A stretch of DNA of 64,000 bases, taken from assembly GCF_001428895.1 (NCBI RefSeq), contig NZ_LMJA01000009.1, positions 41,320-105,319 of the forward strand. The letters run 5' to 3'. This DNA is from Mycobacterium sp. Root265 (GTDB lineage Bacteria > Actinomycetota > Actinomycetes > Mycobacteriales > Mycobacteriaceae). How positions within the stretch are numbered: position 1 is the stretch's first letter; the number at the start of each line of letters is the position of its first letter. The notes beneath the pieces were generated by a model that ran no database searches, was not told the DNA's origin, and saw nothing but the letters and a program-made list of their open reading frames with translations. The position numbers and the translations under genes are program-made. Below, piece by piece: positions 28,368-49,252 of the stretch.

Positions 28368-28462
28368 CCCGAAGCGGCGCGCATTGTTGCGGGCGTCAAT
28401 ATCCCCGGTCCACGCCATCTGGCGGGTGTAGTGTCCGGGCGTCCGTCAAACCGGGAGGTCCG

Positions 28463-32385: not shown

Positions 32386-33084
32386 CTAGCTCGCGCCCAC
32401 CAGGTGCGCCCGCCGCGGTGACAACCGCAGGTGACCGAGCATCGCGACCGCGGCAGTCAGTGCCGCCGACAGCGCGAACGGGACGGCGATGTGCCACCGC
32501 AACAACAGCGCGCCGACGACCGCGCCGGCGAAGATCATGGCGATGGCGCCGAATCGCCGGTTGAGCAGCACGCCACCGCCCCTGCGTGTCCAGGTCTCAC
32601 CCGCCAGTGACGCCAGCGTGGAGGTCACCACGACGGTCGTCATATCGGCGACCGCCACGGCCCGGGCGACCATGGCCTGCGAACCCATCACCGCAGCCGT
32701 CGCGGCCGCCATCACGATCTGGATGGCCGGGCCGGAGTGGTCACCGACGACGGCGGCGACCACGGTGAGCGCGGTCAGTGTCAGTGCGCCGAGCGTCAGC
32801 AGCACGGTGACCCGGTGCTGCCACCCTTTGGCACCCGCGCGCAACACCAGGCCGGCGACGAAGGCCGCGGCGGTGAACGCCGCCAGCGCGATCGCCGGGC
32901 CCAGCACCGGCAGATCGTCCGCGCCGGCCACGCCCATGCCGAGGATCACGATGTTGCCGGTCATGTTCCCGGTGAACACCCGGTCCAGGGCCAGGAAGCC
33001 GACGGCGTCGACGACTCCGGTGACGAAGGTCAGTGTGACGGTCGCGGCCAGGGCCAGCTTCTGTTCGGTGTCGGTCAGCGCCAT
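32386..33084 (-). CDS. DUF1275 (YoaK-type) membrane protein
   Basis: 232 residues from the ATG at 33084, which overlaps the stop of the upstream transporter by one base (TGATG). About six membrane segments; the GVVDAVGFLALDRVFTGNMTGN block near the start is the DUF1275 signature. Function of the family is not established. Coupling to the transporter suggests a joint role in uptake or export. Confidence 0.88.
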   Translation of the reverse strand: MALTDTEQKLALAATVTLTFVTGVVDAVGFLALDRVFTGNMTGNIVILGMGVAGADDLPVLGPAIALAAFTAAAFVAGLVLRAGAKGWQHRVTVLLTLGALTLTALTVVAAVVGDHSGPAIQIVMAAATAAVMGSQAMVARAVAVADMTTVVVTSTLASLAGETWTRRGGGVLLNRRFGAIAMIFAGAVVGALLLRWHIAVPFALSAALTAAVAMLGHLRLSPRRAHLVGAS

Positions 33085-34655
33085 CAGAAGACGAGGATGG
33101 CGAAGACGGTGGACAGCACCAGACCGGCCATCACCGGCAGGAAGCACTTGCGCGCCAGGGTGAGGACCGGGACGCGTGCGAAGCCGGCCACCGCGACCAG
33201 GGATGACCACGCGACCAGCGTGCCGCCGCCGGACCAGATGTTGCCCATCTGCCCGATCGCGGCCAGCGTCGCCGGATCCATCCCGGCGGCGCTGCCGAGC
33301 GCACCTGCCAGCGAGCCGGTCAGGGGGAGACCGCTGAACCCGGAACCCTCCAGGCCAGCGATGACACCGACGAAGAGCACCGTGAACGCGACGATGAAGG
33401 CATTCGGTGCGACATGTGACAGCGCCGCGTTGATCAGATCGAACAGCAACGCGGGCCCGGTGGCGTCCTCGGGCATTCCCAGGATGCGGGCGGAGAAGTC
33501 GCCGTTGCCGATGAAGAAGAACCCGGCGATCGGCAGCACGATGCCCATGGCCTTGAAGGCGAACACCAGGCCGTCGACGATATGGGTCGACGAGCTCTCC
33601 AGAAATGTCCGCTTGTCGTTGGTCAGGCAGGCGGCGAACAGCAGCATCGCGGCGATACCACCGACGATGCCCGCGGCGTCACCACCTTTCAGCGGCGGTA
33701 CCAGGCTGGTGAACTTGCCCAGCAGGAGATAGACGATGAATGCCAGGTAGGCCATCGGCACGGTCACCGCGAAGGCTTTGGCCGCCAACGTTTTCGGCGG
33801 ATCGACCGGATCCGGCACGGCATCGTCGAGCACGATGGTGGCGGTCGGGGCATTCGCATCGCCACCACCGACACCGCCGCCGGCGGGGACTGGGGCGTCC
33901 CCGCGCAGGCTCACACCGGTGCCACCCGACACGTCCGTGCCAGGTTCTTCGTTGGTCGCGACGCCGAACTTGTCGGCCTTGTTCTCCCAGGCCACCAGCA
34001 GATCCGGGGACGGTTTCTGCCAGGTCCGGCGCTGGGTGAAGTAGGTGATGGCCAGCGCGACCAGACCCACGATGAGCGAGAGCACCATCGCCTTGTCGGC
34101 GACGCTGTCGGTGTCGACACCGGCCGCCGTCGCCGAGATTCCCGGGGCGACCTTGATGATGTAGTCCGACGACAGGGCCATGCCCTGGCCGGCGATGGCG
34201 ATCACCATGCCGACCGACAGCGGACTCAGGCCGGCGCGGATCGCCACCGGAATCAGCACGGCGCCCACCAGAGGTACCGCGGGAGTGGGCCAGAAGAACA
34301 GCGAGATGACATAGGTGACGATGGCCAGTACCACGAAACTGCTTGTGCCCGCCCGCATCACTCTGCGGAACGGCGTCACCATCAGTCGGTCGGCACCCAT
34401 CTCACGCAGGGCGCCGATCATCGCTGTCACGAAAGCGATGATGAGGAAGATGTTGAACAACTCGTGAGCGGCCACCAGGCTGGCATTGAAGATCGACGCC
34501 AGACCGGTCACGATGCTGCCCGAAAACACCCACGCGGTAAGCAATGTCGCGATGACCGCAGGCACCACGATGTTCTTGCGGAGCGCCATCGTGATGAGAA
34601 TGACGACAATTCCGGCCAGGTAGATCCAGTGGGCCGCGCTGAGTTGTATATCCAT
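33084..34655 (-). CDS. Polytopic transporter, paralogue of 45450-46982
   Basis: 523 residues from ATG 34655 (MDIQLSAAHW); an in-frame GTG at 34670 is possible. About 11-12 membrane segments in two halves, divided by a hydrophilic Pro/Gly/Asp-rich loop (about residues 215-285). Conserved blocks shared with its paralogue include AIAGQGMALSSD, FFWPTPAVPL, GLEGSGFSGLPLTGSLA and IWSGGGTLVAWSSL. The two-halved layout resembles ion-transporter superfamily carriers of organic anions; family not certain. It lies divergent to the MFS gene and downstream of TGTGCA motifs. Confidence 0.75.
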   Translation of the reverse strand: MDIQLSAAHWIYLAGIVVILITMALRKNIVVPAVIATLLTAWVFSGSIVTGLASIFNASLVAAHELFNIFLIIAFVTAMIGALREMGADRLMVTPFRRVMRAGTSSFVVLAIVTYVISLFFWPTPAVPLVGAVLIPVAIRAGLSPLSVGMVIAIAGQGMALSSDYIIKVAPGISATAAGVDTDSVADKAMVLSLIVGLVALAITYFTQRRTWQKPSPDLLVAWENKADKFGVATNEEPGTDVSGGTGVSLRGDAPVPAGGGVGGGDANAPTATIVLDDAVPDPVDPPKTLAAKAFAVTVPMAYLAFIVYLLLGKFTSLVPPLKGGDAAGIVGGIAAMLLFAACLTNDKRTFLESSSTHIVDGLVFAFKAMGIVLPIAGFFFIGNGDFSARILGMPEDATGPALLFDLINAALSHVAPNAFIVAFTVLFVGVIAGLEGSGFSGLPLTGSLAGALGSAAGMDPATLAAIGQMGNIWSGGGTLVAWSSLVAVAGFARVPVLTLARKCFLPVMAGLVLSTVFAILVF

Positions 34656-35025
34656 CGACGGTCTTTTCACTCACAACTGCTCGTGGGCTGTGCAGTCTGA
34701 TGTGGGAATGCTCGGCCCGTTGCCCGACCGGGTCAACGCACACTGTGCACAACGGTGTGCGGATGGCCCTGTGCAACGTGTTCCGACATTGTCATCCTGA
34801 TGTCGCGGTGTTTCGCAAACGTTAAAATCCGCGCTGGGGTGCGGTTTGTCACGAGGCACGCACCCGGCACGGCTGTGCACAATGCCTGATTCCGGGCGGT
34901 ATCGCTGTGCGCCTTGGCCCGCACATGCGGCACCTTCGCCGCGCCGGGAATGAGACAGTGGCGGTGCGGGTGCCACTGCATCTCGCGCAGCCACACCACA
35001 CAGATCGGCCACGGAAGTCCCCGCC
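34656..35025. promoter_or_regulatory. Divergent regulatory region with repeated CTGTGCA motifs
   Basis: No gene. The decamer CTGTGCACAA occurs twice (34743-34752 and 34873-34882), with related CTGTGCAA at 34769-34776 and TGTGCAGTCTGA at 34689-34700. The same TGTGCAGTYTGA occurs at 38188-38199 upstream of the PucR gene. This suggests a shared regulator for the island. Confidence 0.55.
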
Positions 35026-36420
35026 ATGACTGACACAGACAGCCGCGTCCCCGCGGGCCCGGCGGTCCCCGACGGAGCCGGCACGCCGTTGGCGCTCGCC
35101 GCGCTGCTCTCCGGAACCTTGGTCGGCACGGTCAGCAACAACGTGGTGAACGTGCCGATGCCCGCCATCCTCGCCGAGTTCGGTGCACCCCTGGGCAGCG
35201 GCGTGTTCGTGGTGGTCGGCTTCCTGATGACCTTTACCGCGACGATGCCGCTGGTCGGCTGGATCGGGGACCGGTTCGGCAGGCGCCGGATGTACTGCGC
35301 GTCGATGATCGCCACCGCGGTGTGCGCCATCGGCGCCGCGACCGCGCCGTCGCTGGAGCTGCTGATCCTGTGGCGCTGCCTGGGCGGTGCGGCCGCCTCC
35401 GCGCTGGGCCCCGCCGTGCTGGGCCTGTTGACCTGGCTGTTCGCCGGCGAGCGGCGGGGCAGGGCGGTGGGGCTGTGGGCCTCGGTGAACGGCATCGGTC
35501 AGGCCATCGGACCCACCATGGGCGGATTCATCGCCGACGGCTGGGGGTGGCGATGGGTGTTCGTGCCGCTGGTCCCGGTCGCGCTGGCCGGCCTGATCGG
35601 CACCCTGCTCCACATTCCCCGTCATCCGGGCACCACGATGCGCTTCGACACCATCGGCGCCACCGCGCTCACCGTCGGGTCGGGGCTGCTCATCCTCGGC
35701 GTCGCGCTCGTCCCGCGGCAAGGAGTGTCGGTGGTTGTCGTCGTCGCCGTGACGGTGGCCGTGGCGATCCTGGTGTTCTTCGTCCGGCACTGCCTGCGGG
35801 TGCCGGAGCCGTTCGTCGACGTGCGACTGGTGGCGGAGGCCCGGTTCGTCCGCAGCACCTTGGGCGCGTTCGCGTTCATGTTCAGCCTCGGGGCCACGCT
35901 ACTCGCGGTGCCCCTCTATCTCGTCGGCAGCGGCCGGACCGGGTCGCTGGCGGGCGTGGTGCTGCTGGCGATCCCGGCCTCGATGGTGATCCTCGGACCG
36001 CTGGTCGGGCGCTACCTGGACCGGATCGGGGCCCGGCGGGTGCTACGCACCGGGTTGGCGCTGCTGATCATCGGCCAGGCGCTGCTCGCCGCGGCCGTCG
36101 GGGCGCATCTGGTGGAGAAACGTTGGGGGCTGGCCGGCTTCGTGGCGATTCTGGTCCTGGTCGGCATCGGCACGGCATTGGTGCAGACACCGGCGGCCAC
36201 CGGTGCCACCCGCTCGCCGGCCGGGGCGCAGGGCACCGGACTCGGATTGTTCAACCTGGTGCGCTTCGGCGGCTCGGCGATGGGCGCCGCGTGGGTCGCG
36301 ATCGCCCTGGGCTTCGGCGCCACCACCGGCTTCACGATCGCGTTCGCGATGGTGTCCGGCGTCGCGGTGCTCGGACTGCTGGGCTCGTTCATCGGGCCCG
36401 ACCCGGCGCCCGAACCGTAG
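35026..36420 (+). CDS. MFS transporter (DHA2-like, 14-TM range)
   Basis: 464 residues with about 13-14 membrane segments. Motif A is WIGDRFGRRRMY (about 83-94) and a GGFIADGWGWRWVF block follows the middle of the N-terminal half. It is a proton-driven exporter or importer of an unknown small molecule. It points toward the PucR gene (convergent, 11-bp gap) and is divergent from the transporter at 33084-34655, so it probably belongs to the same catabolic island. Confidence 0.9.
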   Translation: MTDTDSRVPAGPAVPDGAGTPLALAALLSGTLVGTVSNNVVNVPMPAILAEFGAPLGSGVFVVVGFLMTFTATMPLVGWIGDRFGRRRMYCASMIATAVCAIGAATAPSLELLILWRCLGGAAASALGPAVLGLLTWLFAGERRGRAVGLWASVNGIGQAIGPTMGGFIADGWGWRWVFVPLVPVALAGLIGTLLHIPRHPGTTMRFDTIGATALTVGSGLLILGVALVPRQGVSVVVVVAVTVAVAILVFFVRHCLRVPEPFVDVRLVAEARFVRSTLGAFAFMFSLGATLLAVPLYLVGSGRTGSLAGVVLLAIPASMVILGPLVGRYLDRIGARRVLRTGLALLIIGQALLAAAVGAHLVEKRWGLAGFVAILVLVGIGTALVQTPAATGATRSPAGAQGTGLGLFNLVRFGGSAMGAAWVAIALGFGATTGFTIAFAMVSGVAVLGLLGSFIGPDPAPEP

Positions 36421-36431
36421 CGCCGTCCACC

Positions 36432-38102
36432 TCAACGGAAGCTGGCCTCCCGGTCGACAGCGGCGTGCACCTCGCTGAGCAGGTCCAGCCGGATCGCCAG
36501 CCACACGGTGAACTGGTTGTCGGGCAACCGGATATCGAGACCGATCGCCCGCGACACCCGGTCCAGTTTGGTCAGCATGGTGTTGCGGTGCACGTTGAGC
36601 ACCCGGGCGGTGGCGTTGACGTTCCCGCCGTGGGACAGGTAACCGGTCAGGAAATCGCGCAGGTCGGGAGTGGCGCGCAGGGGTCCCAGCAGGTCGTTGA
36701 CCAGAGCCTTGCTCTGCTCGGTCTCGGCGATCTCGGCCAGCACCGTGAAACTGCGCAGATCCTGGTAGGACACCGCGCCGGTGAGGCCCAGCCTGCGTGC
36801 GATGCCCAGCGCGATGCGGGCCTCGCGGTAGCTGGCCGAGACGGCCTGGGCGCCACTGGCGGGCCTGCTGTAGGACACGGCGACCGCGGCGCCGCGGCGG
36901 TTCTCGAGTTCGCCCGCCATCGCCTCGGCGTAATGGACCATCTCGCGGTGCCGCGCGGTGTCGTCATCGCCGCAGAGTGAGCGCACCACCACCAGCACGT
37001 CACCCAGCACGGTGACGTAGGAGCGGACGGCGGGATCGGGCGCCACATTGGCGGCGTACCGGGCCAGCCGGACCATGCTCGCCGCGGGGTTGTCCACACC
37101 GTGCGGAATCGCGCCCGGCGCGACGAAAACACCGAACTGCGAATCGATGTCGATATCGTGGTACTCGGCTCGTGCGCGCATATCGTGCTCGCTGGAGAAG
37201 TGGCCGTGGACCAGAGCCTGGACGAAGTCGCCGCGGGCGCGTTCCTCGGCCTCGTCGACGCTGTGCTGGCGCAGCATCTCCGAACCGATGATCGCGGTCG
37301 CCTGTTCGGTGACGACGATGTGTCGCGCCAGATCGTGGGCACCCGGTTCGGAATTCGGGACCAGGACGAGCACCCAGCCCTCGAAGGCCTTGCCGAGCCG
37401 GATGGCCGTGGAGATGGCGGTCCACGCATTGCCGTGCGGGTCCGCGAGATGCTCGACGCGGGTGTCGTGATGGCCCGGGAGCCGCGCGCCGGCCGGCAGG
37501 TCGACGGTCAACCTCGGCACGATGACCTCGGTGAGGACTCCCGCGGCCTCGGCGGCCAAGCCGTTGTGAGCCACGATCTGGCCGCGGGCATCCAGTGCCA
37601 CTGCGGGGTTGCGGGCCAGGTTGGACACCTCGCGGATCAAGATCTGTAGCCCGGCTCCGCGGTGGAAGAGCCCCGCCAGGGAGGCGTGCACGTGCGTGGC
37701 GTACCGCATCACGTGCACTTCCTGACTCAGCGCCCGCTCCGCCAGCAGCCGGTTCAGTGCGGTGAACCCGACCGGAAACGCCATCTCGATCACCACGAGC
37801 CCGGCAGGCAGGGCCGTCGGGAAATCGGCGGGGACCGCGCCGTCGACCACCAGGGTGGTGGCGCCGCGGGCGGCGAGCGCGGCCAGTGCGCCGGCGGTGC
37901 CCAGTAGGGCTTCCGGACGTGCGTAGACCGCGACGCCGTCGAGCGGCTCGTGGCGGGACAGCACCTCGGAAAGGGGCAGGACCCAATGCAACTCGCGGCC
38001 CAGGTGATCCTGGCCGGCGATCACCCGCGCGCCGGACATGAGCGACTCGTCGAGCAGTCCGGCGACCGTCATCCGGTCGCCGTGCGGGTGCTCTGCTGTC
38101 AT
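36432..38102 (-). CDS. PucR-family transcriptional activator
   Basis: 556 residues from the ATG at 38102 with AGGTGA upstream. An N-terminal PucR ligand-binding domain (about 10-130), a middle GGDEF-like domain typical of CdaR regulators, and a C-terminal PucR helix-turn-helix with NATARVLNVHRNTMLTKLDR near the end. These regulators control catabolism of purines, sugars acids or amines. Position between the two halves of the island makes it the likely local regulator. Confidence 0.9.
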   Translation of the reverse strand: MTAEHPHGDRMTVAGLLDESLMSGARVIAGQDHLGRELHWVLPLSEVLSRHEPLDGVAVYARPEALLGTAGALAALAARGATTLVVDGAVPADFPTALPAGLVVIEMAFPVGFTALNRLLAERALSQEVHVMRYATHVHASLAGLFHRGAGLQILIREVSNLARNPAVALDARGQIVAHNGLAAEAAGVLTEVIVPRLTVDLPAGARLPGHHDTRVEHLADPHGNAWTAISTAIRLGKAFEGWVLVLVPNSEPGAHDLARHIVVTEQATAIIGSEMLRQHSVDEAEERARGDFVQALVHGHFSSEHDMRARAEYHDIDIDSQFGVFVAPGAIPHGVDNPAASMVRLARYAANVAPDPAVRSYVTVLGDVLVVVRSLCGDDDTARHREMVHYAEAMAGELENRRGAAVAVSYSRPASGAQAVSASYREARIALGIARRLGLTGAVSYQDLRSFTVLAEIAETEQSKALVNDLLGPLRATPDLRDFLTGYLSHGGNVNATARVLNVHRNTMLTKLDRVSRAIGLDIRLPDNQFTVWLAIRLDLLSEVHAAVDREASFR

Positions 38103-38187
38103 GTGCTCACCTGCTCTGTGCGGCGTGTTCGTCGATGCGGTGGCGGATCGAACCACCACGATCACACTGTCGACTGCCCACAGCCTA

Positions 38188-38199
38188 TGTGCAGTTTGA
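38188..38199 (+). promoter_or_regulatory. TGTGCAGTTTGA motif upstream of the PucR gene
   Basis: Matches TGTGCAGTCTGA at 34689-34700 at 11 of 12 positions. It lies in the 234-bp divergent region between the PucR gene and the GlcG-like gene, about 86 bp from the PucR start. Candidate PucR binding element. Confidence 0.4.
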
Positions 38200-38336
38200 C
38201 CATGATGCGGCCGATAAAGCGGACATTGTGACCAAGGCGGGTGGCGGCTTGCCCCGGTAGACATTCACCAGGCGAACAGCCCGGGGCGGGATCGCCGCCC
38301 CGCAGGAACCCAGCAATTCTCAGGAGGTCAGCAGAT

Positions 38337-38789
38337 ATGCACCAGATCTACCGGATCACCCTCGACGACGCCCTTCCCCTGCTCGCCGCCGGCCGGGCCA
38401 AGGCCGAAGAGATCGGTGTCAAGCAGACCCTGTGCATCTGCGATGACGGTGGCAATGTCCTTGCCCTGCACCGGCTTCCGGGTGCCCGGCTGACCGGCGT
38501 CGATATCTCCATCGCCAAGGCGTTCACCGCTGCAGGACACGAGCGGGCCACCCACCTGTTCAACGAGGCCCCGGACGGCCCGGCACTGCCGGGCAACGAG
38601 GCCTTCGGTATCAGCCACATGCTGCCGGGCAAGTTCGCGGTCTTCGTCGGCGGGTTCCCGCTCGTCTTCAACGGCCAGATCATCGGCGGCGTCGGGATCA
38701 GCGGCGGTAACGGCACGCAGGACAAGGCCGTCGGCGCGGCGATCCTGGCCGAGTTCGAGGCGCTGACCGCTGCGGTCGCGAGTCACTGA
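38337..38789 (+). CDS. GlcG/HbpS-like (DUF336) protein
   Basis: 150 residues from the ATG at 38337 with AGGAGG 9 nt upstream. The fold signatures are CICDDGGNVLALHRLPGA and GGFPLVFNGQIIGGVGISGG, as in GlcG and the haem-binding HbpS. These proteins are often found with catabolic operons for hydroxy acids, diols or amines; some bind haem or cobalamin-like ligands. No signal peptide, so it is cytosolic here. First gene of the plus-strand half of the island. Confidence 0.88.
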   Translation: MHQIYRITLDDALPLLAAGRAKAEEIGVKQTLCICDDGGNVLALHRLPGARLTGVDISIAKAFTAAGHERATHLFNEAPDGPALPGNEAFGISHMLPGKFAVFVGGFPLVFNGQIIGGVGISGGNGTQDKAVGAAILAEFEALTAAVASH

Positions 38790-38924
38790 GGCCGGTGTGC
38801 ATCATGCCTCGTCGCCGCGTCCATCAGGGGTGATGTTGTCCATGTCGCAACCCCGGTCCGCTGGCTAACGTCGCTGGTGCAGAGTCGACTTCGCAACGGC
38901 GCGTCGCCTCGCAGCCCCCATCAA

Positions 38925-38959
38925 TCGCGAAACTGTCTCTGTTGCTGATGGTTTCGCGA
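38925..38959. promoter_or_regulatory. Inverted repeat upstream of the diiron-protein gene
   Basis: TCGCGAAAC (38925-38933) and GTTTCGCGA (38951-38959) form a perfect 9-bp inverted repeat with a 17-bp spacer, 27 bp before the start at 38987. It may be an operator or an mRNA hairpin. Confidence 0.5.
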
Positions 38960-38986
38960 AATCAACCGATCGAAGGGATCTGATCC

Positions 38987-39706
38987 ATGACTGAACTACT
39001 GGGCCGTGACGAGTTCCGCGCCGAGCTCGAGAACGCGATCAAGGGTCGTGAGGCCAAGAACGCATCGTTCTCCAAGGCGTGGGCCGAGGGCCAACTGGAG
39101 CGCCACCACTTCGCCCGCTGGGCCGAGAATCACTTCCACTACGTCGGGCCGTTCGCCGACTACCTGGCCAACATCTACGCCAACACCCCGGACCAGTTCA
39201 CCGGCGCGAAGGATTTCACGCTGCAGAACATGTACGAGGAAGAGCTCGCGGACATCCGGCACACCGACCTGCTGATCAAGTTCGGTGAGGCATGCGGCAC
39301 CACCAAGGAACGCATCGAGGACCCGAACAACATGAACGCCATCACCCGCGGCCTGCAGTCGTGGTGCTACGCGGTGTCGCAGCGCGAGCACTTCGTGGTG
39401 GCCACCGCCGCGCTGGTGGTGGGCCTGGAATCCCAGGTGCCCAGCATCTACATGAAGCAGATCGTGCCCCTGCGTGAGGTCTACAAATTCACCGAGGACG
39501 AGATCGAGTTCTTCGATCTGCACATCACCTCCGATGTGGTGCACGGCGAGCGCGGCTACCAGATCGTGCTGGACCACGCGGACACCGTGCCGCTGCAGCA
39601 GCGTTGCCTGCAGATGGTGCGGTGGGGAGCCGAGATGCGGTTCTCCTACACCAAGGGTCTGTATGACACCTACGTCGCGCCCGAGCTGGAGCCGGTCGCG
39701 GTCTGA
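38987..39706 (+). CDS. Haem-oxygenase-like diiron oxidase (TenA/PqqC/CADD fold)
   Basis: 239 residues, all-helical. Six candidate metal ligands occur in the spacing of the CADD/HDO family: E85 and H92 (in EEELADIRH), E148 (GLES), H179, D183 and H186 (HITSDVVH). In HDO enzymes these hold a non-haem di-iron centre that activates oxygen. Annotation pipelines often call such proteins TenA, PqqC or iron-containing redox enzyme. Downstream genes give a Rieske ferredoxin and a ferredoxin reductase, so I infer an oxygenase component with its own electron supply. Substrate unknown. Confidence 0.8.
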   Translation: MTELLGRDEFRAELENAIKGREAKNASFSKAWAEGQLERHHFARWAENHFHYVGPFADYLANIYANTPDQFTGAKDFTLQNMYEEELADIRHTDLLIKFGEACGTTKERIEDPNNMNAITRGLQSWCYAVSQREHFVVATAALVVGLESQVPSIYMKQIVPLREVYKFTEDEIEFFDLHITSDVVHGERGYQIVLDHADTVPLQQRCLQMVRWGAEMRFSYTKGLYDTYVAPELEPVAV

Positions 39707-39714
39707 GTGACTTC

Positions 39715-39751
39715 GGTGCGTCCACGCCCGCTGCGCGAGCGTGGACGCGCC
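39715..39751 (+). repeat. Intercistronic hairpin between the diiron and Rieske genes
   Basis: GCGTCCACGC (39718-39727) pairs perfectly with GCGTGGACGC (39739-39748) around an 11-nt loop, extendable to 13 pairs with one wobble. It sits 8 nt after the diiron-protein stop and 20 nt before the Rieske ATG, with no T run. It may trim or protect the upstream message and set unequal protein amounts. Confidence 0.6.
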
Positions 39752-39770
39752 GGATTCGGACAGGAGAATC

Positions 39771-40121
39771 ATGGAGTGGACCGCGGTCGCCACCGCGCGA
39801 CAACTGGGCAGACGCCGCAAGCTGCGGGTCGAGGTCGACGGTGTCGCCGTCGCGCTGTTCCAGACCGAAGGGCGGGTGTACGCCTTCGCCGATCTCTGTG
39901 TGCACCAGGATCGTTCGCTGTTCAAGGGGACGCTGCTGCACGGCAAGGTGATCTGCCCGGGCCATCAGTGGCAGTTCGACCTGGAGACCGGCTACGAGGC
40001 CGATCAGGACCTTTGTCAGCCCACCTACCCGGTGCGCGTCGACGACGACGGCACCATCTACGTCAATCTCGCGCCGGAGAGCCGTGTGCCGGCCCGCACC
40101 GAAGAGGAGGCGCGGACATGA
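39771..40121 (+). CDS. Rieske [2Fe-2S] ferredoxin
   Basis: 116 residues from the ATG at 39771 with AGGAG upstream. Cluster ligands are C43-x-H45 and C62-x2-H65 (CVH and CPGH), the standard Rieske box. No other domain is fused, so it is an electron carrier rather than an oxygenase. The stop overlaps the reductase start as ATGA, which ties the two together as an electron-transfer pair. Confidence 0.93.
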   Translation: MEWTAVATARQLGRRRKLRVEVDGVAVALFQTEGRVYAFADLCVHQDRSLFKGTLLHGKVICPGHQWQFDLETGYEADQDLCQPTYPVRVDDDGTIYVNLAPESRVPARTEEEART

Positions 40122-41362
40122 CACCGCGCACCATCGTCACCGTCGGCGCCGGGCAGGCTGCCGCCGTCGCCGCCCGCAACCTGCGCAGGCAGGGATTCGA
40201 CGGCCGCATCATGCTCATCGGGGACGAACCCCACGCGCCCTACCAGCGCCCGCCGCTGTCCAAGGAATTCCTGGCGGGCACCGACAGCGAGGCCGCCCTC
40301 TGGATTCTGCGCCCCAGCTGGATCGCCGACAACGAGGTGGAGATCGTCACCGGAACCAGCGTGCTGCGGGTGGACCCGGCGTCGCGGAGCGTCACGCTGG
40401 ACACCGGTACCGAGATCGACGCCGACGCAGTACTTTTTGCCACCGGAGGCACGCCGAGACCGCTGACCGTGCCCGGCCCGCGGCCCGAGCTCGTGCACTA
40501 CCTGCGCACGCTCGACGACGCCGTGGCGCTGGCCCCGGTACTGGTGCCGGGGAAGCGGCTGGCCATCATCGGCGCGGGTTTCATCGGCCTGGAGATCGCG
40601 GCCACCGCGGCCGCCGCAGGTGTGGCGGTCACCGTGTTCGAATCGGTACCCGTGCCGTTGGCCCGCATCCTCGGTGCCGCGATGGGTGAGGCCGTCAGCC
40701 GGCTGCACCGCGACAACGGCGTGCAGCTGCGCACCGGAGTGCGGTTGGACGGCATCCGGACCACCTCCGACGGTGTGCTCATCGACGTGACCGGCGCCGC
40801 AGCACCTTTCGAGGCCGACGCCGTCGTGATCGGCATCGGCATCACGCCGAACACCGCCGCCGCGGAGGCTTCCGGGCTGCGTGTCGAGGACGGCATCGTG
40901 GTGGACGCGTCGGGCCGCAGCAGCATCCCGAACATCTACGCCGCCGGAGACGTGGCACGCCGGTACTCCGAGCGGGCCGGTCGCCACATCCGCCTGGAAC
41001 ATTTCGACAACGCCAGCAGGCAGGGCGTGGCGGTATCCAACGCGATGCTCGGCCGCGATGCGCCCTCCGACGATGCGCCGTGGTTCTGGTCGGACCAACA
41101 TGGACGAAACCTTCAGTTCGTCGGTACCGCCACGGGGGATCCGGTGATCCGCGGTGACGTCGGTGCACTGGACTTCACCGGCTTCTACCTGGAGGGCGCC
41201 GCGGTGTGCGGCGCCTTCGCCATCGACCGCGGCGAGGACATCATGGCCGTGCGGGAGCTACTGGGCCGCGAGGTCGACATCGCGGCGCTGTGCGATGAGG
41301 ACACCGATCTGTGGGACCTCGCCTACGCAGACATCGACGAAGAATCGCAGGTACAGCAATGA
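40118..41362 (+). CDS. Ferredoxin reductase (FAD, NAD(P)H)
   Basis: 414 residues. The FAD site starts with VGAGQAAAVAARNLRR; the NAD(P)H site is IIGAGFIGLEIAATAAA (about 150); AAGDVARR near residue 275 contacts FAD; and the C-terminal domain has FWSDQHGRNLQFVG. This is the BphA4/putidaredoxin reductase family, the usual partner of Rieske ferredoxins. Coupled by ATGA overlaps to the Rieske gene before it and the aldehyde dehydrogenase after it. Confidence 0.93.
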   Translation: MTPRTIVTVGAGQAAAVAARNLRRQGFDGRIMLIGDEPHAPYQRPPLSKEFLAGTDSEAALWILRPSWIADNEVEIVTGTSVLRVDPASRSVTLDTGTEIDADAVLFATGGTPRPLTVPGPRPELVHYLRTLDDAVALAPVLVPGKRLAIIGAGFIGLEIAATAAAAGVAVTVFESVPVPLARILGAAMGEAVSRLHRDNGVQLRTGVRLDGIRTTSDGVLIDVTGAAAPFEADAVVIGIGITPNTAAAEASGLRVEDGIVVDASGRSSIPNIYAAGDVARRYSERAGRHIRLEHFDNASRQGVAVSNAMLGRDAPSDDAPWFWSDQHGRNLQFVGTATGDPVIRGDVGALDFTGFYLEGAAVCGAFAIDRGEDIMAVRELLGREVDIAALCDEDTDLWDLAYADIDEESQVQQ

Positions 41363-42804
41363 CCACAGGACTCAACTTCATCGGCGGCGCCTGGGTGCCC
41401 GCCCTGTCCGGGGCCACCTTCACCCGGACCAACCCGGCCGACCCGGCCGATCTCATCGGCACCTTCCCCGCCTCGGGGCCCGCCGATGTGGCCAATGCCG
41501 TGGACGGGTTGGAGAAGGCCGCGCCGGAATGGGCCGCGACGGCCCCCGAACGTCGCGCGGCGATCCTGGAATCGGCCGCGATGGAACTGCAGAAGCGCGG
41601 TCCCGACCTGATAGCCGAGTTGGTGCGCGAAGAGGGCAAGACCCTCGCCGAAGCGACCATGGAGGTCAGCCGTACCCCGGCGAATCTGCGGTTCTACGCC
41701 GCGGAGGCAACCCGCAGCGGGGGAGTGACGCTGCCCGCGGTCGGCGACACCCTGCTCTACACACTGCGCGAACCGGTAGGTGTCGTCGGTGCGATCACCC
41801 CGTGGAACTTCCCGCTCAACATTCCTTCCCGCAAGCTCGGCCCGGCCCTGGCGGTCGGGAACCCGGTGCTGTTCAAGCCTTCCGAGATCACCCCACTGAT
41901 GGGGCAGCGTCTGGTCGAGGCACTGCTGGCCGGCGGGCTGCCGCCCTCGGTGATCGCCCTGGTCCAGGGTGACGGGCTGGCCGGGGCCGCCGTGGCCGCC
42001 GACGAGCGGATCGCGGCGATCACGTTCACCGGCTCCACCGAGGTCGGTCGCGCCATCCATGGCCGGGTCGGCCCGCACCGGCGGGTCCAGCTGGAGATGG
42101 GCGGAAAGAACCCGGTGCTCGTCGCCGACGACGCCGACCTGGACCGCGCCGCGGCGCTGATCGTCAAGGGCGCCTTCGGGTTGTCCGGTCAGGCCTGCAC
42201 CGGCACCAGCCGGGTGATCGCGACCGATGCGGTGCACGACGAACTGGTCGAGCGGGTGATCCGGCGCACCGAGGCCCTGGTGGTCGGCCCGGGTGCCGAC
42301 GACGGCGTGGACATGGGCGCGCTGGCCAGCGCGCAGCAACTCGACAAGTTCGCCCACTACGTGGCGGTCGGGGTCGCCGAAGGCGCGCGGCTGCGGTGCG
42401 GCGGCACCACCGTGGACGTGGCGGCCGGTCCGGGTGGCCATTTCGTGCGACCGGCCGTGTTCACCGATACCGAACCCACGATGCGCATCGTCACCGAAGA
42501 GGTGTTCGGCCCGTTGCTGGCCTTCCAGCGGGCGGGCTCGCTGAACGAGGCGATCGAGCTGGCCAACGCGACCGAGTTCGGACTCTCGGCGGCCATCGTC
42601 ACCTCGGATCTGGCCACCGCGCAGCGGTTCGCACGCGAGTCGCGCACCGGACTGGTCAAGATCAATCAGCCGACCACCGGGATGGCGATGAACGCGCCGT
42701 TCGGCGGCTACAAGGCCTCGTCGACCGCCACCTTCAAGGAACAGGCCGGGGCGTCCATGATGGAGTTCTACCTGGCCGAGAAGACCGTCTACCTCAACGC
42801 CTGA
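41359..42804 (+). CDS. NAD(P)+-dependent aldehyde dehydrogenase
   Basis: 481 residues; ATG overlaps the reductase stop. Catalytic residues are N150 (TPWN), K173 (KPSE), E246 (LEMGGKNP) and the nucleophile C280 (GQACTG). Closest in feel to semialdehyde or aromatic aldehyde dehydrogenases such as alpha-ketoglutarate semialdehyde dehydrogenase; exact substrate uncertain. It would oxidise an aldehyde released by the upstream oxygenase, for example after N- or O-dealkylation (inference). Confidence 0.9.
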   Translation: MTTGLNFIGGAWVPALSGATFTRTNPADPADLIGTFPASGPADVANAVDGLEKAAPEWAATAPERRAAILESAAMELQKRGPDLIAELVREEGKTLAEATMEVSRTPANLRFYAAEATRSGGVTLPAVGDTLLYTLREPVGVVGAITPWNFPLNIPSRKLGPALAVGNPVLFKPSEITPLMGQRLVEALLAGGLPPSVIALVQGDGLAGAAVAADERIAAITFTGSTEVGRAIHGRVGPHRRVQLEMGGKNPVLVADDADLDRAAALIVKGAFGLSGQACTGTSRVIATDAVHDELVERVIRRTEALVVGPGADDGVDMGALASAQQLDKFAHYVAVGVAEGARLRCGGTTVDVAAGPGGHFVRPAVFTDTEPTMRIVTEEVFGPLLAFQRAGSLNEAIELANATEFGLSAAIVTSDLATAQRFARESRTGLVKINQPTTGMAMNAPFGGYKASSTATFKEQAGASMMEFYLAEKTVYLNA

Positions 42805-42861
42805 CACCCGGTAATCTCAGAATCGCAGAACCGCCAAATTATAGAAACACGGAGAGCAACA

Positions 42862-43218
42862 ATGGATTTCGTTCGGGTAGCACGATCCGGGCAGGTGCCC
42901 GAGGGTATCGTCCGGCGGTTCTACTCCGGCGATCACGAATTCGCCGTGGCACGGCTCAACGGCAAGGCCTACGCCACCTCGAACTACTGCACCCATCTGG
43001 ACTGCCTGCTGTCGTCGGGCAAGCTGCGCGACGACGGCATCGGCTGCTCCTGCCACGGCAGTGCCTTCGACCTGGAGACCGGTGAGCCGATCAGCCCGCC
43101 GGCCACCGAACCCATCAAGACCTTCCCGTGCCAGGAACGTGACGGGGAGATCTTCGTGGGTGTGGAGCCCGGGGAGATGCCCGCGGGCCCGACCCGCCGG
43201 GCCCGCCGGGGCGCCTGA
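42862..43218 (+). CDS. Second Rieske [2Fe-2S] ferredoxin
   Basis: 118 residues. Ligands C43-x-H45 and C62-x2-H65 (CTH and CSCH); an extra Cys (C64) sits beside the second His, and C48 follows the first pair. It differs clearly from the first Rieske protein, so the two may serve different partners. The stop overlaps the gamma-glutamyltransferase gene as TGATG. A 57-bp gap before it is AT-richer and could carry a secondary promoter. Confidence 0.92.
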   Translation: MDFVRVARSGQVPEGIVRRFYSGDHEFAVARLNGKAYATSNYCTHLDCLLSSGKLRDDGIGCSCHGSAFDLETGEPISPPATEPIKTFPCQERDGEIFVGVEPGEMPAGPTRRARRGA

Positions 43219-44822
43219 TGGCCGCGGCACAGCGACCGCCGGCGCTGTCGGCAGGCGGCATGGTCAGCAGCAGTCACCCGGCGGCCAGCCTCGCCGGTGC
43301 GCGGGTGCTGGCCGACGGCGGGAACGCCATCGACGCGACGCTGGCGATGGCCGCCCTGACCTGGCTGACCCTGCCCGGCCAGTGCGGTATCGGTGGCGAT
43401 GCCTTCGCAGTGGTCCGGGAACCCGACGGGCGGGTGTGGACCGTCAACGGATCCGGCTTCGGGCCCGACGGTGGAACCCCGGATTTCTATGCTGCGCAAC
43501 ACCTCGGCGCGATACCGATGGACGGCCCGCTGGCCGTCGCGGTGCCCGGCGCGCCCGCTGCGCTGGTGGCGCTGCACGGCGGCGGCGCCACCAGGTCGCT
43601 GCCGGAACTGTGGGAACCCGCCGCCCGCATCGCCGAGAACGGATTGCCCTGCTCGGCGCGCACCGCAGGTGATGTCAGCTCGGCTGCCGACGCGGTCGCG
43701 GCCGACCCCGGACTCGCCGAGATCTATGCGCCACAGGGTGTTCCGCCCGTCATCGGACGCCGCTTGGCGCAGCCCGCACTGGCGGCAACCATCCGGATGC
43801 TGGCGCACGACCCCGGTAGCTTCTACACCGGCGAGTTCGCCGAACGCGCGGTGGCCGCGCTGCGGGCCGGCGGCGCACCGTTCAGCGGTGACGAATGGGC
43901 GGCGGGCGCGCAGGTGACACCCGAACCCGCGCTCACCGGGCGCTACGCCGGCGCGGTGCTGCACCAGACGCCACTGCCCACACCGGGATGGATGGTATTG
44001 CAGCAGGCGGCGCTGTGCGACGGTGTCCTCGGCGTCGCGGAGTGGATGTCGGCGGCCGCGATCGACCGGTTGGCACGGGCGGCCCGACTGTCGTTCGCGG
44101 ACCGATTTGCCTTGTGCGGCAGCGATAACCGACGTGACGGCGCCGACTACATTCTCAACGCCGACCGTCTGGACGCGCAGCGCCGCGATCTCGACGCCCG
44201 CATCGAAGTGCGCAGCGGCATCGCGGTCGCGGCGGGGGACACCACCTCGACGGTGGCGGTCGACGCCGACGGTCGGGCGGTGAGTTTCATCCACTCGCTG
44301 GCGTTCACCTTCGGCGCGAAGTTCAGCGTGCCCGGCACCGGGGTGGTGCTCAACAACCGGCTGGGGCGGGGCGCGTACCTGATGCCCGGGCATCCCAACG
44401 AGGTGAAGCCGCGCCGAAAGCCGCTGCACACACTCAATGCCTGGATCGTCACCGACGATGCGGGCGCCCTGAAGCATGTCGGCAACACCCCGGGCGGCGA
44501 TGGGCAGGTGCAGTGGAACATGCAGCTGATCTCCCACCTGCTGGACCACGGACGCGATGCCGCCGAAGCAGTCGCGGCATCCAGGTTCACCGTCTTCCCG
44601 GGCTCGGACGCCGACGTCATCGGCGCGCCCGACGAACTGCGCGTCGAGCCCAGCCTGCCCCCCGCGGTGCGCGACGAGCTGGCCGCTCTGGGGCACCGCA
44701 TCGTCGTGCAACCCGATCTCGGTGCCGGCGGCAGCGCCCAACTCATCTCCGTCGACGACCGGGGCGTGCTGACCGGTGCCGCCGACCCCCGCCAGGAAGG
44801 TGTGGCGCTCGGTGTCGACTGA
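43218..44822 (+). CDS. Gamma-glutamyltransferase-family protein
   Basis: 534 residues, Ntn-hydrolase of the GGT family. The expected self-cleavage site is before T342 in GDTTSTVAVD; the usual TTH is TTS here. The glycine-rich NTPGGDGQVQ motif near residue 425 and an early GGNAIDATLA block are present. No signal peptide, unlike secreted GGTs, so it acts in the cytoplasm. It may hydrolyse a gamma-glutamyl or related amide made during catabolism; such proteins are also often misnamed cephalosporin acylases. Confidence 0.88.
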   Translation: MAAAQRPPALSAGGMVSSSHPAASLAGARVLADGGNAIDATLAMAALTWLTLPGQCGIGGDAFAVVREPDGRVWTVNGSGFGPDGGTPDFYAAQHLGAIPMDGPLAVAVPGAPAALVALHGGGATRSLPELWEPAARIAENGLPCSARTAGDVSSAADAVAADPGLAEIYAPQGVPPVIGRRLAQPALAATIRMLAHDPGSFYTGEFAERAVAALRAGGAPFSGDEWAAGAQVTPEPALTGRYAGAVLHQTPLPTPGWMVLQQAALCDGVLGVAEWMSAAAIDRLARAARLSFADRFALCGSDNRRDGADYILNADRLDAQRRDLDARIEVRSGIAVAAGDTTSTVAVDADGRAVSFIHSLAFTFGAKFSVPGTGVVLNNRLGRGAYLMPGHPNEVKPRRKPLHTLNAWIVTDDAGALKHVGNTPGGDGQVQWNMQLISHLLDHGRDAAEAVAASRFTVFPGSDADVIGAPDELRVEPSLPPAVRDELAALGHRIVVQPDLGAGGSAQLISVDDRGVLTGAADPRQEGVALGVD

Positions 44823-45243
44823 ACGGACCGAAGCCCCGGCGCCGCAGGGCGATTACATCCCCGCGACGTTGCACGCCGGGCTCATCTTCAGCGCCGGGAT
44901 GACGCCACGCCGCAACGGGGTACTCACGGTCACCGGTACCGGCGGCCGACAGGTCGACCTGCCCACGGCCCGCGCAGCGGCGATGCTGGCCGCCACCAAC
45001 GCACTGGCCGCGGTCCGGTCGGTGCTTCCCGCGGACGCGTCGGGAGTGCGGTGCCTGCAGATGACCGTGTACGTGGCCTGCACACCGGAATTCACCGCGG
45101 CATCGGCCGTCGCCGACGGCGCCTCCGCAGCGATCACCGCGGAACTCGGGGTGGACGCCTTACCGGCACGGAGCGCGATCGGGGTGTGCGCCCTGCCGTC
45201 CGGCGCACCCGTCGAAGTGCAACTGGTGGCCGCGGCGCTGTGA
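44812..45243 (+). CDS. RidA (YjgF/YER057c/UK114) family protein
   Basis: 143 residues from the GTG at 44812, overlapping the previous gene by 11 bp; the frame is open 36 bp further upstream. Conserved parts are ATLHAGLIFSAGMTP at the start and the late PARSAIGVCALP containing the Arg that binds imine substrates. RidA proteins release ammonia from reactive enamine/imine intermediates. This supports amine chemistry in the island. Confidence 0.86.
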   Translation: MSTERTEAPAPQGDYIPATLHAGLIFSAGMTPRRNGVLTVTGTGGRQVDLPTARAAAMLAATNALAAVRSVLPADASGVRCLQMTVYVACTPEFTAASAVADGASAAITAELGVDALPARSAIGVCALPSGAPVEVQLVAAAL

Positions 45244-45449
45244 CGGCCCAGTGGCGCTGGACACAGTGCACAGCCGCAGGGCAGGTGATGTGTGCGTTCT
45301 CGGCATTGTTCAAAGTTGGTCCATGGAACAAACTCTCGACACCCACGATTGACCTCAGCCACTGCACTCCCGGACCGTTCAGCCCCATGTGAAACCCTTT
45401 CCCGGCCGCTTCGTTTTCTGCCCCGCGCGGCGACCGCAGTCCCGATTGG
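45244..45449 (+). promoter_or_regulatory. Gap with GTGCAC motif and TTGTTC/GAACAA inverted repeat
   Basis: No gene. On the minus strand CTGTGCAC is found at 45266-45273, the same core as upstream of the other transporter. TTGTTC (45306-45311) and GAACAA (45326-45331) form an inverted repeat with 14-bp spacer. Likely a separate promoter for the transporter-amidase pair. Confidence 0.4.
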
Positions 45450-46982
45450 ATGGTGACGTCAGTGTCCATTGCGCACTGGGTGTACCTGCTCGGCCTCGTC
45501 GTGCTGATCGTCACGGTCATCGCCAAGAAGAACGTGATCGCCCCGGCGATGATCGCGACCTTCCTGACCGCACTGGCGTTCTCCGGCAGCATCACCACCG
45601 GTCTCGGCGCGGTGTTCAACGCGGCGATCATCGGTACCCGCGAGCTGCTGCCCATTTTCATCATCATCGCGCTGGTGACCGCCATGCTCGGAGCGGTGCG
45701 CCATGCCGGCGCGGACTCGGTGATGATCCGGCCACTGCGCGGGCTCTTCCGAAATGGCCACATCTCCTATGTGGTCCTGGCTGTGGTGACGTTTCTGCTC
45801 TCGGTGTCGTTCTGGCCCACCCCGGTGTTGCCGCTGATCGCCGCGATCCTGCTGCCCGCGGCGGTGAGAGTGGGACTGCCGCCGTTCGGTGCGGCCCTCG
45901 CGATCGCCATCGCCGGCCAGGGCATGGCGCTCAGTTCGGATCTGGTCATGGGAGTGGCGCCCGCCCTGTCCGCCGAGGGGGCCGACGTCTCCGCGAGCGT
46001 CATCGCCGTGCGGGCGACCATCATCGCGCTGATCGCCGGAGTGGTGGCGCTGGCAGTCGCCTACCTCCGCGACGTGCGCACCAAGATGCTGGATCCGGTG
46101 GCGGCCGCCGCGGTGACGCTGCCCGTCGCCGAGGCCTCCGCCGGCTCTGAGCCAGCAGCGGGCAGCGCCCGCGCAGGCGGCGCCGACACCTCTGGTGAGC
46201 GGGTCCGCACGACCACCCTGCGTCCCTCCGGCGCCGCGGGCGACGCTCTCGACGTCGAGGATGCCTCGCCGTCGACGAAGGCGCGACTCATCGCGATCGG
46301 TGTGCCGACCTTGTTCGCCGCCCTGCTGGCCTTCATGCTGCTGGGCCGGTTCACGCCCTGGGTGCCCGATATCGACGACGGACTGGGGGCACCCCTGGTC
46401 GGTGGCGCCGCAGCCCTGGCCCTGGTGACCATCGCCGTCGTGGTGAGCCGACGGACCTGGCTGGCAGATGTCGGTCAGCATTTCACCGACGGCATCACGT
46501 TCTCGTTCCGGTCCATGGGCATGGTCATTCCGGTGGCGGGTTTCGTCTATATCGGGTTGTCGGACTACTCCGGCGCCATCCTGGGCCTGGCCCCGGAGGC
46601 GCCCGCGCCGGCTTTCCTGCTGGATGCCGTGGCCTCGGTGGAGCCCTATATTCCCCAGGTGCCGGTGTTCGCGGCCTTCGCGATGCTGCTGATCGGCATG
46701 GTGATCGGCCTCGACGGCAGCGGCTGGCCCGGCTTGCCGTTCACCGGGTCGCTGGCAGCCTCCCTGGGTGAGAGCTCGGGTGCTGATGTCGCCACCCTGG
46801 CGGCGATCGCGCAGAACGGGGCCAGCTGGACCGGCGGGGGCACGCTGGTGATCTGGTCGTCGCTGATCGTGGTGGCGGGCCTGACCGGGGTATCGGTGAT
46901 GGATCTGGCCCGTCGACTGTTCGTCCCGGTGATGTGCGGCCTGGTGGTGGCCACCTCGGTGGCGGCGGTGCTGCTGCTGTGA
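45450..46982 (+). CDS. Polytopic transporter, paralogue of 33084-34655
   Basis: 510 residues; the N-terminus VSIAHWVYLLGLVVLIVT aligns with SAAHWIYLAGIVVILIT of the other copy. Same two-half plan of about 11-12 membrane segments with a hydrophilic loop (about 210-270), and shared blocks AIAGQGMALSSD, FWPTPVLPL, GLDGSGWPGLPFTGSLA and WTGGGTLVIWSSL. Probably imports the island's substrate or a related compound. Its stop overlaps the amidase start. Confidence 0.76.
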   Translation: MVTSVSIAHWVYLLGLVVLIVTVIAKKNVIAPAMIATFLTALAFSGSITTGLGAVFNAAIIGTRELLPIFIIIALVTAMLGAVRHAGADSVMIRPLRGLFRNGHISYVVLAVVTFLLSVSFWPTPVLPLIAAILLPAAVRVGLPPFGAALAIAIAGQGMALSSDLVMGVAPALSAEGADVSASVIAVRATIIALIAGVVALAVAYLRDVRTKMLDPVAAAAVTLPVAEASAGSEPAAGSARAGGADTSGERVRTTTLRPSGAAGDALDVEDASPSTKARLIAIGVPTLFAALLAFMLLGRFTPWVPDIDDGLGAPLVGGAAALALVTIAVVVSRRTWLADVGQHFTDGITFSFRSMGMVIPVAGFVYIGLSDYSGAILGLAPEAPAPAFLLDAVASVEPYIPQVPVFAAFAMLLIGMVIGLDGSGWPGLPFTGSLAASLGESSGADVATLAAIAQNGASWTGGGTLVIWSSLIVVAGLTGVSVMDLARRLFVPVMCGLVVATSVAAVLLL

Positions 46983-48370
46983 AAATTGCAGGGGTGAACG
47001 CGGCGACCGTGATCGAGACGGCCGATCTGGTGCGGTCGGGTCAGGTGAGCGCGCAGGACACCGTGGCGCGAGCGCTGACGGCCATCGAGGAGACCAACGG
47101 CGCGCTCAACGCCTTCATCCACGTCGACGGTGAACGGGCCATGGACTGGGCCCGCGACGTCGACCGGGTGGTGGCTCGCGGCGGCGATCCGGGTGCGCTG
47201 GCCGGGGTGCCGATGGGGGTCAAGGAACTGCAGCCGGTGCAAGGTTGGCCGTTCGCGATGGGGAGCACGCTGCACGCCGGCCGGATTGCCGACCACACCT
47301 GCACCCTGGTGTCCCGAGCTGTCGCCGCCGGTGCGGTGCCGATCGGGGTGACCGCATCCCCGGAGTTCGGCCGCGCTTCCTACACCGCATCGGTCTTGCA
47401 CGGCATCACCCGCAACCCCTGGAACACCGACCTGACGCCGGGCGGGTCCAGTGGCGGGTCGGCCGCCGCCGTCGCGTCCGGCATGGTGGCGGTGGCCACC
47501 GGCACCGACGGCGCCGGCTCATTGCGCATTCCGGCGTCCTACTGCGGACTCGTGGGTTTCAAGGCGACGTATGGAGTGGTTCCACGCGGGCCGCGGCACC
47601 GGGGAGTCGCAGACAACGACCACTACGGAGTGCTCACCCGGACCGTCGCCGATACCGCGCGGGTGCTCGACAGCATCTGCGGCATCGATCACCATGACCG
47701 GGCGTCCCTGCCGGCGCCGGCGCAATCGTTCGAAAAGAACTTGTACACAACCGATTTGAGTGCACTGCGAGTGGCTTTCACGGCGACACTCGGTGGGGCG
47801 CCGTGTGATCCCGCGATTGCCGCAGCGGCCGAAGCGGCCGCCGAGAAATTCATCGAGGCCACCGGTGCGCGCCGGGTGAGCGCCGCGGCGATACGCATCG
47901 ACGCGGCGTGCAGCACAGCGTTTCGCACGCTGTCGGCGCCGGACGTCCACGCCCAGGTCGGCTCGCCGGTGGATCTCGGGAACGTTCATCCGGCGGTGCG
48001 CCGCTACTTCGAGGCCGCCGCCGAACTGGATGCCACGACGCTGCTCGATGCGCACGAGGCGCGGGCCCGGCTGGTGGCCGGCATGGCGTCGGCGTTCGAG
48101 GCATTCGACCTGTTGCTCACGCCGGCCACCACGGTGCCGTCCTTCGCAGCCGAAGGGCCCATGCCCACCGAGATCGACGGTCGCCCGGTGGACCACTGGG
48201 GTGCGTTGGCCGCCACCTACCCGTTCAACCTCACCGGCCAACCGGCGATCTCTGTTCCTGCGGCCCTGGTGGGCGGTGCTCCCATGGGTCTGCAGATCGT
48301 CGGCCGGAGGCATGCCGATGCAACGGTGTTGGCGGCCGCGGCGGCCTTCGAGCGGATCGGCCTCTTCTAG
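46979..48370 (+). CDS. Amidase (amidase signature family)
   Basis: 463 residues from the GTG at 46979 (GTGA overlap); a GTG at 46994 is an alternative. The Ser-cisSer-Lys triad is visible: K82 (GVPMGVKEL), S158 (GGSSGGS) and the nucleophile S181 (GAGSLRIPAS). It cleaves a carboxamide to acid plus ammonia or amine. Coupling to the transporter suggests the imported compound, or its first product, is an amide. Confidence 0.92.
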   Translation: MKIAGVNAATVIETADLVRSGQVSAQDTVARALTAIEETNGALNAFIHVDGERAMDWARDVDRVVARGGDPGALAGVPMGVKELQPVQGWPFAMGSTLHAGRIADHTCTLVSRAVAAGAVPIGVTASPEFGRASYTASVLHGITRNPWNTDLTPGGSSGGSAAAVASGMVAVATGTDGAGSLRIPASYCGLVGFKATYGVVPRGPRHRGVADNDHYGVLTRTVADTARVLDSICGIDHHDRASLPAPAQSFEKNLYTTDLSALRVAFTATLGGAPCDPAIAAAAEAAAEKFIEATGARRVSAAAIRIDAACSTAFRTLSAPDVHAQVGSPVDLGNVHPAVRRYFEAAAELDATTLLDAHEARARLVAGMASAFEAFDLLLTPATTVPSFAAEGPMPTEIDGRPVDHWGALAATYPFNLTGQPAISVPAALVGGAPMGLQIVGRRHADATVLAAAAAFERIGLF

Positions 48371-48443: not shown

Positions 48444-48563
48444 TTGCCTGGGGCAGACCTCGGTTCTCTCATGCGAGAAAACCCTGCGTGCTCTCGGGGC
48501 AACAAAGACCGCGCACGTCAGGTCGGTATCTGCCGTGCACACATAACCAGGTCAGGAGATCGA

Positions 48564-49250: not shown

Positions 49251-49252
49251 GA

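Follow-up and report, generated by a model that had tools for sequence, protein, structure and literature searches.

About a dozen haem-oxygenase-like dimetal oxygenases (HDOs) have been functionally validated, and the accessible part of a 2026 review describes them in biosynthesis (PMC13108848). For one HDO, MboA, the accessible text of a second paper reports that MboB, an NADH-dependent flavin/Fe2S2 reductase, is required for its second step, and that the authors regard MboAB as possibly the first characterised dedicated pair of an HDO and its redox partner (PMC13185094). Rieske proteins have been connected with dinuclear oxygenases of another fold: in the available portion of PMC10811679, AibG is proposed as the reductant of a non-classical dinuclear oxygenase, and a strategy based on Rieske neighbours yielded dinuclear oxygenases of the PF04909 fold. 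Here we analyse a locus of Mycobacterium sp. Root265 in which the gene for an HDO-fold protein is followed by genes for a stand-alone Rieske ferredoxin (Rieske 1) and a BphA4-type reductase. It lies in a stretch of 64,000 nucleotides (contig NZ_LMJA01000009.1, positions 41,320 to 105,319 of the forward strand), called the window below and used for all its coordinates. We consider it probable that the locus is a catabolic island in which a multi-component oxygenase with a catalytic part of the haem-oxygenase fold would carry out the oxidative step, and comparative genomics supports this interpretation.

The mangotoxin acetylenase MboA with MboB resembles the window in combining an HDO with a dedicated reductase, and a reductase with BenC as its best match is also found in the Burkholderiaceae version of the present system. 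As far as the accessible text goes, however, MboA/MboB belongs to natural-product biosynthesis, has a single reductase protein and acts on a peptide, whereas the window has stand-alone ferredoxins in a catabolic-looking locus. CADD and PabS have a six-ligand spacing identical to that of the window HDO, but the latter lacks their sacrificed and relay tyrosines, falls below the family cut-off and stands in another gene setting. The Rhodococcus three-component monooxygenase AibH1H2-AibG-AibF also combines a non-classical dinuclear oxygenase with a small Rieske protein as its proposed reductant, according to the parts of its descriptions available (PMC7782822, PMC10811679). Its oxygenase has the PF04909 amidohydrolase fold, unlike the haem-oxygenase fold of the window. 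AibF we take to be a component of that same system. Among solved structures, Rieske 1 is nearest to the ferredoxins of biphenyl dioxygenase (1fqt, 2.5e-11) and naphthalene dioxygenase (4.4e-10) and to T4moC of toluene 4-monooxygenase (7.1e-08), and in these chains a Rieske oxygenase or ferritin-fold diiron hydroxylase serves as terminal oxygenase.

An earlier reading of this DNA, made from the letters and their open frames (the sequence-only reading), knew of no characterised example of the arrangement. Among the papers listed by our literature search, which had most subscription journals and bioRxiv outside its scope, none likewise dealt with an HDO linked to a Rieske protein or ferredoxin or with the present cluster. 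The system falls short of being categorically new, since HDOs as such, dinuclear oxygenases linked to Rieske proteins and one pair of an HDO with its reductase are already on record; its novel element is the full ferredoxin chain that accompanies an HDO in an island of catabolic appearance.

The predicted dimetal site and its linkage to a candidate redox chain

The sequence-only reading had given the 239-residue protein a complete set of six HDO ligands in family spacing, and the residues are as it described them: E85-x6-H92, E148 and H179-x3-D183-x2-H186, in a protein that matches PF14518. In a phmmer alignment, counted by hand, they fall on CADD positions 81, 88, 142, 174, 178 and 181, which we take to be the metal ligands of CADD. 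All six were invariant in the eight orthologues aligned (8/8, from actinomycetes, one further actinobacterial genome and Burkholderiaceae) and in 47/47 sequences, namely that of the window and 46 of the 80 loci described below. The protein thus has the three-His, three-carboxylate HDO ligand set, and its predicted fold is the seven-helix haem-oxygenase fold. Among the chains ranked by Foldseek and compared with VIA-align, this fold matched CADD and UndA, the two that the sequence-only reading had proposed for an overlay, as well as HrmI and FlcD, while chains outside that ranking may match too. Of the solved relatives, CADD and PabS stand closest in sequence, and in fold, too, CADD is among the closest. 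Note that the Pfam name matched by the protein, Haem_oxygenas_2, also covers dimetal proteins. We tried a PqqC identity and rejected it, as the cut-off of NCBIfam TIGR02111 was not reached. Judged by its sequence, the protein is predicted to be a dimetal-binding, O2-activating enzyme. It is the single HDO of this kind in the 6.67-Mb source assembly, on one of whose contigs the window lies (one match, E 0.001 or better), and it recurs at 100% identity in Mycolicibacterium sp. P9-22 and at 98% in M. frederiksbergense LB 501T.

Among the GTDB species genomes we found 375 relatives of the HDO and analysed the best 80, which are 81-100% identical and of which 74 come from records without a metagenome-assembled genome (MAG) label. 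They include Mycolicibacterium, Rhodococcus, Gordonia, Nocardia, Streptomyces, Actinomadura, Micromonospora, Pseudonocardia, Amycolatopsis, Blastococcus, Nocardioides and others. Linkage was counted by tblastn of 13 window proteins against these loci, whose choice as best HDO matches biases the conservation values towards the HDO. Rieske 1 accompanies the HDO in 80/80 loci, and the order HDO-Rieske-reductase, on one strand, which the sequence-only reading had wished to see surveyed in relatives, was conserved in 79/80. The sole locus without the reductase (L045) ends 319 bases past the HDO, and the five loci without the second Rieske gene of the island (Rieske 2) are on contigs that have at most 3,126 bases left downstream of it. 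The gap between the HDO and Rieske 1 matches was 9-220 bases, with a median of 94. In these loci, picked by HDO score, the lowest identity was 81% for the HDO (median 89%, the highest of the set), 46% for Rieske 1 and 42% for the reductase. The order of the remaining genes varies between genera, as viewed without counts in open reading frames picked roughly by third-position GC content (GC3), and HDO, Rieske and reductase therefore appear as a core that is held together.

The same association was seen across whole genomes. In the window's family the HDO is present in 31/301 genomes (82-100% identity). A Rieske 1 orthologue (E 1e-25 or better) was found in 30 of these 31, each adjoining the HDO by its coordinates, and in 0/270 of those without the HDO. 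The HDO genome that gave no Rieske 1 match (G659) is only 74% complete; in G438 a stop codon falls within the match, and the Rieske 1 of G410 is only 50% identical. Across the phylum, 51 of 396 genomes had some HDO match at 1e-5, but the close matches were those of the source genome itself and of G031 (74%) only, the next being 29% identical. A family so sharply bounded and patchy suits a catabolic cassette.

As the sequence-only reading had held, the island offers these carriers no classical partner: neither a Rieske-oxygenase alpha subunit nor a P450 nor a ferritin-fold diiron hydroxylase was matched by the 12 island proteins searched with Pfam or by the thirteenth, searched with NCBIfam only. 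PF04909 was not found beside a Rieske gene in the same 12 proteins (Pfam, E 0.01), which sets the locus apart from the AibH2/SfbO kind. Genome-wide there are seven Ring_hydroxyl_A matches (P450s were not searched at this scale), all on contigs other than the window's, and with no such alpha subunit on the window's contig the locus does not qualify as a Rieske non-haem oxygenase. The genome holds three Reductase_C (PF14759) proteins. A second PF14759 match in the window, at ~480-686 (contig positions 41799-42005), lies in an open frame of 886 residues on the contig that carries the HDO, at a distance of about 40 kb upstream.

Other carriers in distant clades and competing explanations

Outside the close loci the HDO keeps company with different carriers. 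In the order of G031 it is present in 3/148 genomes (74-78% identity), and in each of the three, genes for a plant-type and a Rieske ferredoxin stand directly behind it on the same strand by tblastn; Pfam confirmed Fer2 and Rieske in two of the three (L119 and L120). HbpS-like and aldehyde dehydrogenase (ALDH) matches lie near the HDO in 3/3, an OCD-family match in 2/3 (not L120), and the queries used gave no reductase match in the 19-20 kb around it. Among plasmids, 6/72,556 records carry the HDO, at 65-69% identity, in Cupriavidus and Caballeronia. We viewed its neighbourhood in four of the six and compared gene content in the Caballeronia and two Cupriavidus records. Here two Fer2 plant-type ferredoxin genes with an orphan small gene between them (on the opposite strand to the HDO) lie near the HDO, along with a BenC/AntC-like reductase (best NCBIfam match BenC, 217 bits, below the cut-off of 430), an ALDH, an HbpS/GlcG-like gene, a member of the OCD family and a permease from the window's family. 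The orphan gene encodes a protein of ~106-116 residues (L113 13078-13428, minus strand, and the same in L114; L112 10400-10720, minus strand), which is 36% identical between Caballeronia and Cupriavidus and gave no Pfam or NCBIfam match for the Caballeronia copy. A role as effector or coupling protein of the HDO is conceivable.

On the HDO tree the three carrier sets sort in 3 changes, which is the minimum possible, against a shuffled mean of 10.6. Group supports are moderate (84/64, 88/78 and 88/88), with none at the level that the tool sets as strict, and very long branches lead to the distant sequences. If it is the HDO that the carriers serve, rather than another enzyme, one would expect just this: an oxygenase that stays constant while its carriers are exchanged.

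This bears on the possibility that the Rieske proteins and the reductase serve a remote enzyme, one of the seven Rieske oxygenases or a P450, with the HDO as an independent neighbour. The genome does hold seven Ring_hydroxyl_A proteins for only three with Reductase_C, and other HDOs can run in vitro on chemical mediators, as stated in the accessible text of PMC13185094. However, the lack of Rieske 1 in every family genome without the HDO, and the other-family carriers that sit near it in other clades, make such an arrangement improbable. The complete and invariant dimetal site tells against a haem-degrading system, in which the haem-oxygenase-like protein, ferredoxin and reductase would act with an HbpS-like haem protein. 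The names Haem_oxygenas_2 and HbpS-like invite that explanation, and some bacterial haem oxygenases do use a ferredoxin and a reductase; with ALDH, a gamma-glutamyltransferase (GGT)-fold hydrolase, Rid, PucR and a permease as neighbours, we hold it to be very improbable. A self-sacrificing 4-aminobenzoate synthase of the CADD/PabS type, equipped with a reductase, is scarcely credible, even though these two are the closest solved sequences and CADD is among the closest folds. The protein scores 84.2 bits with TIGR04305, whose cut-off is 200, and CADD Tyr27, presumably the sacrificed tyrosine, and Tyr141 and Tyr170, presumably the relay tyrosines, are S29, L147 and F175 here (counted by hand; invariant in 47/47). 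The setting, with permease, ALDH and regulator, does not fit either.

A fourth proposal refines more than it competes: the two small carriers would be non-redundant, one feeding the HDO and the other serving a second redox step or gating O2 activation. All three clades have two small [2Fe-2S] proteins of some family, bacterial multicomponent monooxygenases have an effector that gates O2 activation, and the orphan protein lies between the ferredoxins of Caballeronia and Cupriavidus. Nothing direct speaks against it, but PMC13108848 reports no need of a protein effector for the HDOs studied to date, and we regard this division of labour as rather unlikely. For the multi-component oxygenase with the HDO as its catalytic part, which the sequence-only reading had put forward, linkage, co-occurrence and the exchange of carriers between clades all argue in favour. 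GGT or Rid is missing from some loci and an OCD protein is present in others, which weakens the product route proposed below.

The island, its proposed chemistry and its surroundings

The HDO-Rieske-reductase stretch forms the front part of a larger, ~15-kb island (33084-48370), the genes of which are listed below.

Genes of the island in window coordinates, with best family match and number of loci with a match
Feature	Coordinates	Strand	Evidence
HDO-fold protein, putative dimetal oxygenase, 239 aa	38987-39706	+	PF14518 2.2e-32; ligands E85, H92, E148, H179, D183, H186
Rieske ferredoxin 1, stand-alone, 116 aa	39771-40121	+	PF00355 1.6e-14; CxH-x16-CxxH; adjoins HDO, 80/80 loci
BphA4/HcaD-type FAD ferredoxin reductase, 414 aa	40118-41362	+	PF07992 2.2e-64, PF14759 3.6e-19; 79/80 loci
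Aldehyde dehydrogenase, 481 aa	41359-42804	+	PF00171 2.8e-141; 75/80 loci
Rieske ferredoxin 2, stand-alone, 118 aa	42862-43218	+	PF00355 3.2e-19; 75/80 loci
GGT-superfamily hydrolase, 534 aa	43218-44822	+	PF01019 2.8e-87; 68/80 loci
Rid/YjgF-family protein, start uncertain	44776-45243	+	PF01042 1.3e-11; 69/80 loci
HbpS/GlcG-like protein, start probably ~38337	38241-38789	+	PF03928 4.5e-31; 71/80 loci
PucR-family regulator, start uncertain, divergent	36432-38264	-	PF13556 8.7e-15; 74/80 loci
MFS transporter	35026-36420	+	PF07690 1.9e-52; 72/80 loci
Membrane protein, probable permease by eye, 528 aa	33084-34670	-	without NCBIfam match; 73/80 loci
Second membrane protein, same family, 510 aa, optional	45450-46982	+	without Pfam/NCBIfam match; 17/80 loci
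Amidase-signature amidase, optional, start uncertain	46934-48370	+	PF01425 9.3e-90; 14/80 loci

The Pfam matches and the ATGA overlap of Rieske 1 with the reductase (40118-40121) agree with the sequence-only reading, which did not mention a second ATGA overlap, between reductase and ALDH (41359-41362), or Rieske 2, whose motif spacing is identical to that of Rieske 1. The Rieske 1 motif occupies residues 43-65, a longer GTG start would give that protein 126 residues instead of 116, and the reductase carries two GxGxxG/A motifs. The nearest NCBIfam family of the ALDH is 2,5-dioxovalerate dehydrogenase (488.8 bits, below the cut-off of 750), and the GGT protein falls below the gamma-glutamyltransferase cut-off of TIGR00066 (232.8 vs 357.85 bits). 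No close plasmid relative of the latter was found (571 records, all below 60% identity). The first membrane protein has a copy near the HDO of Cupriavidus and Caballeronia that is 43-50% identical.

From what is known of these families, NAD(P)H would give its electrons to the FAD reductase, from which they would go to one or both Rieske [2Fe-2S] proteins and on to the dimetal centre of the HDO, where the reduced site would bind and activate O2 and oxidise the substrate. The two Rieske carriers may be interchangeable or act in series, or one may have a gating role. The families of the other gene products suggest that the permease would import the substrate and that the product would be converted further by the GGT-fold hydrolase, acting on an amide bond, by Rid (imine or enamine hydrolysis) and by ALDH (aldehyde oxidation), under the control of the PucR regulator. 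Our guess for the substrate is a small nitrogen compound: an amine, an amide or an N-heterocycle. Homarine and the routes of purines, pyridines and polyamines were considered as candidates, and none of them is supported by a match.

A wider proposal, which we put forward tentatively and with somewhat less than even confidence, is that the locus represents a class of catabolic, obligately multi-component oxygenases in which an HDO replaces the ferritin-fold protein as hydroxylase and works with two [2Fe-2S] carriers of interchangeable families. Such a class would make an abundant nitrogen compound accessible to catabolism by chemistry that has yet to be assigned to any HDO, perhaps starting with N-heterocycle ring cleavage, after which an amide would be hydrolysed, Rid would hydrolyse an enamine and an aldehyde would be oxidised. 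If true, multi-component HDOs would be a further convergent solution beside the bacterial multicomponent monooxygenases and the AibH kind. HDOs are known mainly from the building of natural products, and here one stands in an apparent nutrient-breakdown cluster. At least 80 close loci place a candidate electron chain and a local regulator beside the enzyme, and with this family it can readily be tested whether ferredoxins can sustain an HDO as an oxygenase through multiple turnovers; the regulator gives a path to the substrate through induction and knock-out. Distant relatives keep the HDO with other suppliers, so that its electron source is directly testable, and the contrast of Rieske with plant-type ferredoxins as companions of one oxygenase amounts to a natural experiment on the demands that the HDO surface makes on a partner.

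Gene content around the core is variable. With 10 kb present on either side of the HDO in each locus named, tblastn found no GGT gene in L055, L056, L071, L072 and L074, no Rid gene in L071 and L072, no HbpS-like gene in L059 and L066, no PucR or ALDH gene in L066, no gene for the major facilitator superfamily (MFS) transporter in L067 and L070-L072, and no permease gene in L067. A different ALDH, 40-43% identical to that of the window against at least 55% elsewhere, is present in L044, L055, L056, L058, L065, L069 and L072-L077. In these loci (Streptomyces, Pseudonocardia, Amycolatopsis and Sciscionella) it lies mostly beside PucR or HbpS and not behind the reductase.

The two membrane proteins of the island are paralogues and look like an unnamed permease family travelling with the cluster. 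On a conjugative Arthrobacter plasmid (L116 11547-23624) a homologue of the permease is found amid a luciferase-like (LLM) monooxygenase, a flavin reductase, an amidase, an ALDH and a Rid protein. This set, a different oxygenase with similar downstream enzymes, leans towards an N-heterocycle or amide, although a single record is no proof. The flanks of the island (28325-32381 and 48444-49825) carry, by eye, an arylsulfatase with a formylglycine-generating-enzyme-like protein on one side and the ribosomal protein genes L14, L24 and L5 on the other, and the catabolic cassette appears to border on a ribosomal protein operon.
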